A stretch of 64,000 nucleotides of DNA from Sorangium aterium (GTDB lineage: Bacteria > Myxococcota_A > Polyangia > Polyangiales > Polyangiaceae). Position numbers and translations under genes: made by a program. The DNA is taken from the NCBI RefSeq assembly GCF_028368935.1, contig NZ_JAQNDK010000001.1:2666001-2730000 (forward strand), written 5' to 3'. Of this stretch, positions 6,359-6,505 are shown piece by piece. Each line of letters starts with the position of its first letter. Position 1 is the stretch's first letter. Under the pieces are notes generated by a model that saw nothing but the letters and a program-made list of their open reading frames with translations, was not told where the DNA came from and ran no database searches.

Positions 6359-6505
6359 CGTTTACGTGGTCGTGAACGTTTACGTGGTCGTGGTCGTGAA
6401 CGTGGTCGTGGTCGTGGTCGTGGTCGTCAACGTCAGGCCGTGAACGACCACGACCACGACCACGACCACGACCACGACCACGATTACGATTACGTAAACG
6501 TTCAC
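6359..6505. repeat. Hexamer-periodic inverted repeat (GTGGTC / GACCAC)
   Basis: Twelve consecutive hexamers of form GTNNNC (GTGGTC, GTGAAC, GTTTAC, GTCAAC) fill 6359-6430. After a short spacer the complementary series fills 6440-6505: GTGAAC, six perfect GACCAC, two GATTAC, GTAAAC, GTTCAC. The outer ends match exactly (6371-6384 against 6493-6506). The two arms can pair over about 60 bases with few mismatches, making a very long hairpin or cruciform. Either strand would encode only His-Asp dipeptide runs, so it is not read as coding. Confidence 0.85.

Follow-up and report, generated by a model that had tools for sequence, protein, structure and literature searches.

A hexamer-built palindrome in Sorangium aterium forms the interior of a dispersed, MITE-like element

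Bacterial MITEs include the Correia elements, TIMEs, and MITEAba12. The foldback elements of Drosophila, such as FB and Galileo, have long inverted repeats composed of short tandem subrepeats, with arms of variable length, and IS4-like transposition is characterized by a 10- to 13-bp duplication together with an IS4-type end sequence. In the accessible part of one source, MITEs are defined as small, noncoding, multicopy elements with terminal inverted repeats and target duplications, mostly intergenic and without a transposase of their own (PMC4133298). REPs, which include the GTAG and CGTC superfamilies, are dispersed extragenic palindromes, and the available portion of their description gives no known transposase for the CGTC group (PMC3733652). 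The ends of IS607 and hAT elements carry short directly repeated motifs that are bound by several transposase dimers, as stated in the accessible portion of PMC6188088. Finally, the part of a report on Thiohalocapsa PB-PSB1 that was available describes MITE-like tandem inverted repeats with predicted stem-loops, matched to the ends of intact IS elements (PMC10907252).

The locus considered here lies in a 64,000-nt stretch of Sorangium aterium DNA (contig NZ_JAQNDK010000001.1, positions 2,666,001 to 2,730,000; referred to as the window), which is part of a 13.47-Mb genome. The initial annotation reported at 6359 to 6505 a long palindrome made wholly of hexamers with fixed ends. This description was confirmed in the sequence: positions 6359 to 6506 form a near-palindrome of 11 left units and 10 right units flanking a 22-nt core, and the natural frame of the units is CGTNNN on the left and NNNACG on the right, with CGT and ACG as the fixed triplets. 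An inverted-repeat search returned arms of 60 nt at 85% and 57 nt at 89% complementarity. The palindrome is thus present where it was placed, but the element to which it belongs is larger, running from 6313 to about 6514, and includes a terminal inverted repeat. Its parts and neighbors, all on the forward strand, are as follows.

1265 to 6235, plus strand: upstream gene, with a weak match to Met-zincin DUF4953 (E = 8e-6; searched from 1397).
6254 to 6274, plus strand: G+C-rich palindromic stretch outside the element that possibly terminates transcription of the upstream gene; most of it is preserved where congeners have an empty site.
6313 to 6330, plus strand: left terminal inverted repeat, CCTAGGCGTTAACCAAGC; family consensus, CATAGGCGTTAACCAAGC.
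6331 to 6358, plus strand: left subterminal unique segment, TTCGCGCCGCGTTCTCCCACCATCCGAA, conserved in the family (37 copies aligned).
6359 to 6424, plus strand: left arm, 11 units of CGTNNW.
6425 to 6446, plus strand: core, CGTCAACGTCAGGCCGTGAACG, which reads CGTCAACG-TCAGGC-CGTGAACG, with the 6-nt center at 6433 to 6438.
6447 to 6506, plus strand: right arm, 10 units of NNNACG.
6507 to 6514, plus strand: beginning of the right end, TTGGTGAC, from comparison with complete copies such as L097 and L104.
6647 to 7237, plus strand: downstream gene, a GNAT-family acetyltransferase.

The window copy stops short of what complete copies (L097 and L104) have: the right end is missing beyond these eight bases, and with it the terminal repeat on that side. 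The window copy also carries a 1-nt insertion in the left subterminal segment, and its core is in the commoner of two orientations.

The rest of the genome bears out the view that this feature is more than a microsatellite, since it holds many further copies of a dispersed, mostly intergenic palindromic repeat. A 24-mer of four CGTGGT units has 229 overlapping occurrences, versus 1 for the reversed control. The core, with up to 3 mismatches, has 48 matches (reversed control, 1), a strict generic palindrome has 47 (reversed control, 0), and the left-end motif, with up to 2 mismatches, has 34. The 16-mer TAGGCGTTAACCAAGC, found exactly at G000:C1:2672315-2672330 (window positions 6315 to 6330), matches 35 places with up to 2 mismatches, the window's included, versus 4 for its reversed control. 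Fifty-eight stretches were fetched, from which L009 and L022 were dropped as one-directional arrays, taken as coding, and L116 as lacking an array; the remaining 55 and the window hold 57 element places. The array at L022:1882-1989, composed of ACCACG and GCCACG in one direction, would translate into a histidine-rich sequence and is probably coding rather than an element.

Complete copies share one order: an 18-bp terminal inverted repeat, a unique left segment, (CGTNNW)n, the 22-nt core, (WNNACG)n, a unique right segment, and the terminal inverted repeat. The unique ends are asymmetric, and the element is without a gene of its own. Terminal inverted repeats were paired at 21 places with at least 12 of 18 matches each, although, with 6 mismatches per repeat allowed, part of these pairings may be fortuitous; element length at these places is 184 to 432 bp. 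Direct repeats of 10 to 12 bp beside the 21 places had a mean score of 3.48 versus -2.26 (standard deviation, 0.76) for shuffled flanks, and none of 500 shuffles was as good. The target duplication is plain at seven places (L026, L097, L104, L112, L031, L094, and L099) and not plain at the other 14. We conclude that the palindrome forms the inner part of a dispersed, nonautonomous, MITE-like element, whose family is new and whose interior is unusual; no description of such elements was found in the open-licence literature.

Variations on this organization occur in the same genome. A second internal form has similar arms, but its central loop is longer, reaching 505 nt at L016, and is bounded by extra CGT units; this form is seen at L016, L019, L025, L029, L033, L108, L155, L156, L157, L160, and L161, several of which have a common loop sequence. 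More than one core stands in tandem at L018, L100, and L109, as though the palindrome had been duplicated. Four copies, at G000:C1:2455366, 2467991, 2479906, and 2491851, follow each other in a row about 12 kb apart, which may be due to chance.

The gene pair flanking the window copy is adjacent in four of five congeners, with 76 to 86% identity; the fifth has no clear orthologue (best match, 35%). At all four loci the site is empty, with a gap of 222 to 260 bp compared with 414 bp here and with neither arrays nor a terminal repeat, so that insertion in this lineage is the simplest account. The initial annotation had named decaying arms in related strains, together with a lack of other copies, as evidence against its reading. 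The arms are indeed missing at this locus in congeners, yet many other copies exist in the genome, and the feature therefore stands, with a mobile element as its explanation. Of the 108 family genomes (the window's included), only the window's contained the CGTGGT palindrome. The generic pattern is present in 5 of 317 genomes of the class, 47 times in the window's genome and once in each of four others (control, 0), and the left-end motif, with up to 2 mismatches, is present in 18 of the 107 other genomes, once or twice each, at about the frequency of the reversed control there. Sorangium cellulosum So ceGT47 has one related palindrome (L227:6968-7013), the only one of congener G102 and the same as a sequence in NZ_CP012670; its core, CGGCCGATCG, is one base off the inverted core of the window's genome. 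It is perhaps a relic of an older family.

A search for further arrays between genes had been proposed, and it returned many: the arrays are wholly intergenic in 52 of 56 stretches, as judged from gene calls made with a home-made codon-usage method rather than from annotation. Gaps with the element are convergent in 23 cases, tandem in 30, and divergent in 2, while 74 element-free gaps of at least 50 bp in the same stretches and the window comprise 14, 45, and 15, respectively (P = 0.006 for convergent and 0.007 for divergent gaps). This bias would be the pattern expected of tolerated insertions, with gaps that have promoters on both sides being spared.

We next consider what the arms are. A single strand of 6354 to 6512 folds at -113.6 kcal/mol as RNA (z = -10.9) and -72.8 kcal/mol as DNA (z = -10.7), and none of 200 shuffles was as stable in either case. 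Rfam returned eight matches up to E = 1, every one under its gathering score and six of them microRNA hairpins. The very stable fold, together with the inversion of the arms in every copy examined, is what would be seen if the palindrome were kept as a DNA cruciform or RNA hairpin, with base pairing under selection, and CGT would lie opposite ACG in any register. The initial annotation likewise took the structure to be maintained or generated as a hairpin. This claim did not survive comparison of 33 simple copies, in which copy-specific pairing is absent: the alignment score of a copy's own arms is -2.32 versus -2.29 for random partners (P = 0.51), ungapped identity is 0.465 versus 0.483, and the lengths of the two arms correlate with a rho of 0.16 (inner runs, -0.11). 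These statistics use 33 of 37 copies, omitting L018, L100, L109, and one of the two L114 copies, which have several cores. Similarly, the variant units thought to mirror each other at the outer ends of the window palindrome (CGTTTA in the left arm, TAAACG and TTCACG in the right) also stand at the arm ends in many other copies and are not copy-specific mirror images. Two rarer units are found in both arms of a copy, CGTGGA in four copies (expected, 1.0) and CGTAGT in three (expected, 1.2); this mild sharing suggests occasional transfer between arms. Pairing alone also leaves the combination of a fixed CGT and free NNN positions unexplained, and selection for a hairpin is in our estimate an unlikely explanation.

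What is constrained in the arms is CGT. The left arm is suited to this count, as it is bounded by the end motif and the core, independently of its own units. Excluding first units, its CGT sites show 4 changes in 1,116, compared with 5 to 8% in the left end segment: 46 changes in 850 bases overall (34 of 37 copies, three with a 1-nt insertion being excluded), and 27 in 330 at the 11 nt outside the search motif (30 of 37 copies, seven being excluded). The corresponding right-arm count is biased because that arm is delimited by ACG. The left arm has a length divisible by six in all 37 copies, A or T ends 781 of the 789 units in both arms, and the NNN positions vary among a few common unit types. 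Among 11 unit types found in one copy only, 2 have a changed CGT, indicating that young mutations do occur at these bases.

These numbers bear on a second alternative, in which a hexamer microsatellite arose neutrally inside a MITE by chance and CGT appears fixed only through the amplification of a few founder units. Slippage is visible in the higher-order runs, such as TAAACG-TTCACG-ACCACG in L112, and in arms of 6 to 25 units among the 33 simple copies, and a few unit types account for most of the 789 units. However, slippage should homogenize NNN and CGT alike, yet NNN varies and CGT hardly does. The same fixed triplet, moreover, is found in an unrelated family in Thiohalocapsa (on side B) and in Dadabacteria, as described below. 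We therefore regard a neutral microsatellite as improbable.

Arrays of this type were sought in a collection of named genomes with the pattern of three CGTNNN units, CG-N6-CG, and three NNNACG units, which presets the CGT triplet and the core spacing. The scan, which had no control for that collection, found 70 heavily clustered loci: 31 in Thiohalocapsa ALSabin.124, 12 in Thiocystis minor, 4 in Dadabacteria J046, 3 in one acidobacterial genome, 2 and 1 in two verrucomicrobial genomes, 2 in Thiorhodococcus, 1 each in Thiobaca, another Thiocystis, another Thiohalocapsa, and So ceGT47, and 11 scattered singles, which may be due to chance. Multicopy families of the same architecture thus exist in Chromatiaceae and Dadabacteria, and the occurrence is thin in the acidobacterial and verrucomicrobial genomes; verrucomicrobial L196 and L201 resemble one orthologous locus in two genomes. 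This recurrence across phyla is the most interesting part of our results and the least secure, since the search pattern itself preset the triplet and the core spacing. A viral origin was rejected: the generic pattern was found in 2 viral contigs versus 1 for the reversed control, which is the chance level.

The family in Thiohalocapsa ALSabin.124 has other terminal repeats (CTAG...), with 93 end matches, and shows no target duplication (25 pairs; 235 of 500 shuffles were as good). Thirty loci were fetched by their ends, and hexamer arrays follow the end in all 30. On side B, 101 units show 2, 6, 2, 20, 29, and 1 changes at positions 1 to 6, so that CGT and the last T are kept and positions 4 and 5 vary; on side A, 67 units show 1, 0, 0, 4, 2, and 0 changes and, being nearly all CGTTGT, are little informative. 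Arm length is a multiple of six in 38 of 43 arms, and 4 more ends lack a recognizable core; the unit counts exclude these 4 ends and the 5 arms of other lengths. A 160-kb sample of the Dadabacteria genome contained four further places matching at 26 to 27 of 28 fixed positions, whereas the control reached at most 17. Two similar palindromes about 160 bp apart at L316:2419-2637 suggest a local duplication there. A 6-nt loop closed by CG pairs recurs in these other phyla, as a hairpin would have it, though the search pattern demanded it. The pairing itself fares no better than in Sorangium: the usual units of the two Thiohalocapsa arms, CGTTGT and CGTGGT when read inwards, are unpaired at position 4, and NNN complementarity in the inner three units is 25% in four Dadabacteria copies. 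Own-arm NNN complementarity exceeds that of other copies' arms in none of the six groups compared (inner three units, with loci unoriented, so that any consistent difference between the two sides depresses the own-arm figure).

The core raises a further alternative, that it is a site-specific recombination site, with a 6-bp asymmetric spacer and inverted arms of 8 to 10 bp, and that the hexamers are accessory sites for the recombinase. Its CG-N6-CG form with inverted flanks has the appropriate layout, and the core stands in reverse orientation to the ends in 14 of 37 Sorangium copies and in 3 of the 17 Thiohalocapsa copies that were scored (5 others were unscored). End modules are also combined across the palindrome in Chromatiaceae. 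Among 49 elements there, seven end modules have at least three members; module 1 is joined to module 0 in 18 elements, to modules 2, 4, and 5 once each, and to unique ends in 3, and modules 2, 4, and 5 are shared by Thiocystis and Thiohalocapsa. Modules were defined by single linkage, and the sole Thiocystis member of module 0 may be spurious. The several partners of module 1 and the modules common to two genera indicate that ends have been exchanged across the palindrome. However, homologous recombination between long arms explains inversion and swapping equally well, and N6 of the core varies widely among Thiocystis copies; we consider a dedicated recombination site very unlikely.

The length of the target duplication, 10 to 12 bp, fits IS4-like enzymes, but an IS4-type parent within the genome was rejected: none of its 11 PF01609 (DDE_Tnp_1) loci has matching ends, the best flank repeat reaching 13 of 18 letters. 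No autonomous partner was found in the families searched, PF01609 and PF01797 (Y1). Two sets of three equal-scoring DDE_Tnp_1 genes in the genome, L146 to L148 and L149 to L151, are probably two IS families with three copies each. A RAYT/REP origin was likewise rejected, as PF01797 has no matches in the window's genome or So ceGT47 and 1 to 13 in the other five genomes tested. The early suggestion of a REP-like element was right insofar as the repeat is a dispersed intergenic palindrome; it fails on the absent Y1 transposase and on the length of about 200 bp. A composite transposon between the two L114 copies was dismissed after inspection by eye, since the intervening reading frames look like ordinary genes, and the 30 Thiohalocapsa loci fetched from 93 end matches included no autonomous copy.

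These results lead us to an account, to which we assign a probability of roughly 60%, in which the element was moved in trans, its arms are putative head-to-head arrays of binding sites, arm length changes in 6-bp steps, and arms are exchanged. A DDE-type transposase, now absent or unrecognized, would have acted in trans. Each short site in the arms may be read through its invariant CGT preceded by A or T, and a transposition or host protein could assemble on the arms towards the core. Slippage or unequal exchange would lengthen or shorten the arms in whole 6-bp steps, and exchange between arms would flip the core and swap ends between copies. IS607 and hAT offer a precedent, their transposases forming arrays on short directly repeated motifs at the transposon ends, as described in the accessible part of the source (PMC6188088). 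In the Thiohalocapsa family, which lacks a duplication, the same DDE enzyme could use the interior only if arms and ends functioned independently; this lack favors a host or recombination protein as the reader, or else a coincidence of form.

MITEs as such are common, but an interior in which half of each hexamer is fixed and the other half varies, and which reappears in distant bacteria with ends of unrelated sequence, suggests that a common factor reads the CGT pattern. Should this factor prove to be a transposase or host protein, it could be assayed cleanly with the arms. If ends are swapped at the palindrome, short mobile elements would have a simple route to new ends, and inverted copies are obvious seeds of chromosome rearrangement. 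It is conceivable, though we hold it to be doubtful, that these elements represent an undescribed class of prokaryotic mobile repeats in up to five phyla, with head-to-head CGTNNN arrays around a CG-N6-CG core and interchangeable ends. The interior would then be a portable recognition and joining module for one widespread protein family, letting different ends recombine.

Among the known systems, the Thiohalocapsa PB-PSB1 repeats, compared here by description, come from the genus of one related hexamer family, and the available part of their description has no hexamer rule. REPs are 20- to 40-bp hairpins without hexamer arrays, unlike the Sorangium element of about 200 bp, and the REP/RAYT system differs further in that PF01797 was not found in the window's genome or So ceGT47. 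In IS607 and hAT, as far as the accessible text of their source goes, the arrays flank the transposase gene, and the IS1535 motifs are 9 bp and helically phased, whereas the Sorangium units are 6 bp and abutting. The foldback elements also have subrepeat-built inverted arms of variable length; the Sorangium element is much smaller, and its layout is the reverse, with the arrays internal and the unique segments terminal. The features given above for MITEs are shared by the Sorangium element, the window copy keeping only the left terminal repeat. It departs from them in that no parent IS was found with the searches for PF01609 and PF01797, in an interior consisting of two head-to-head arrays of invariant-CGT hexamers around a conserved core, and in the presence of that same interior, with unrelated ends, in other bacteria.
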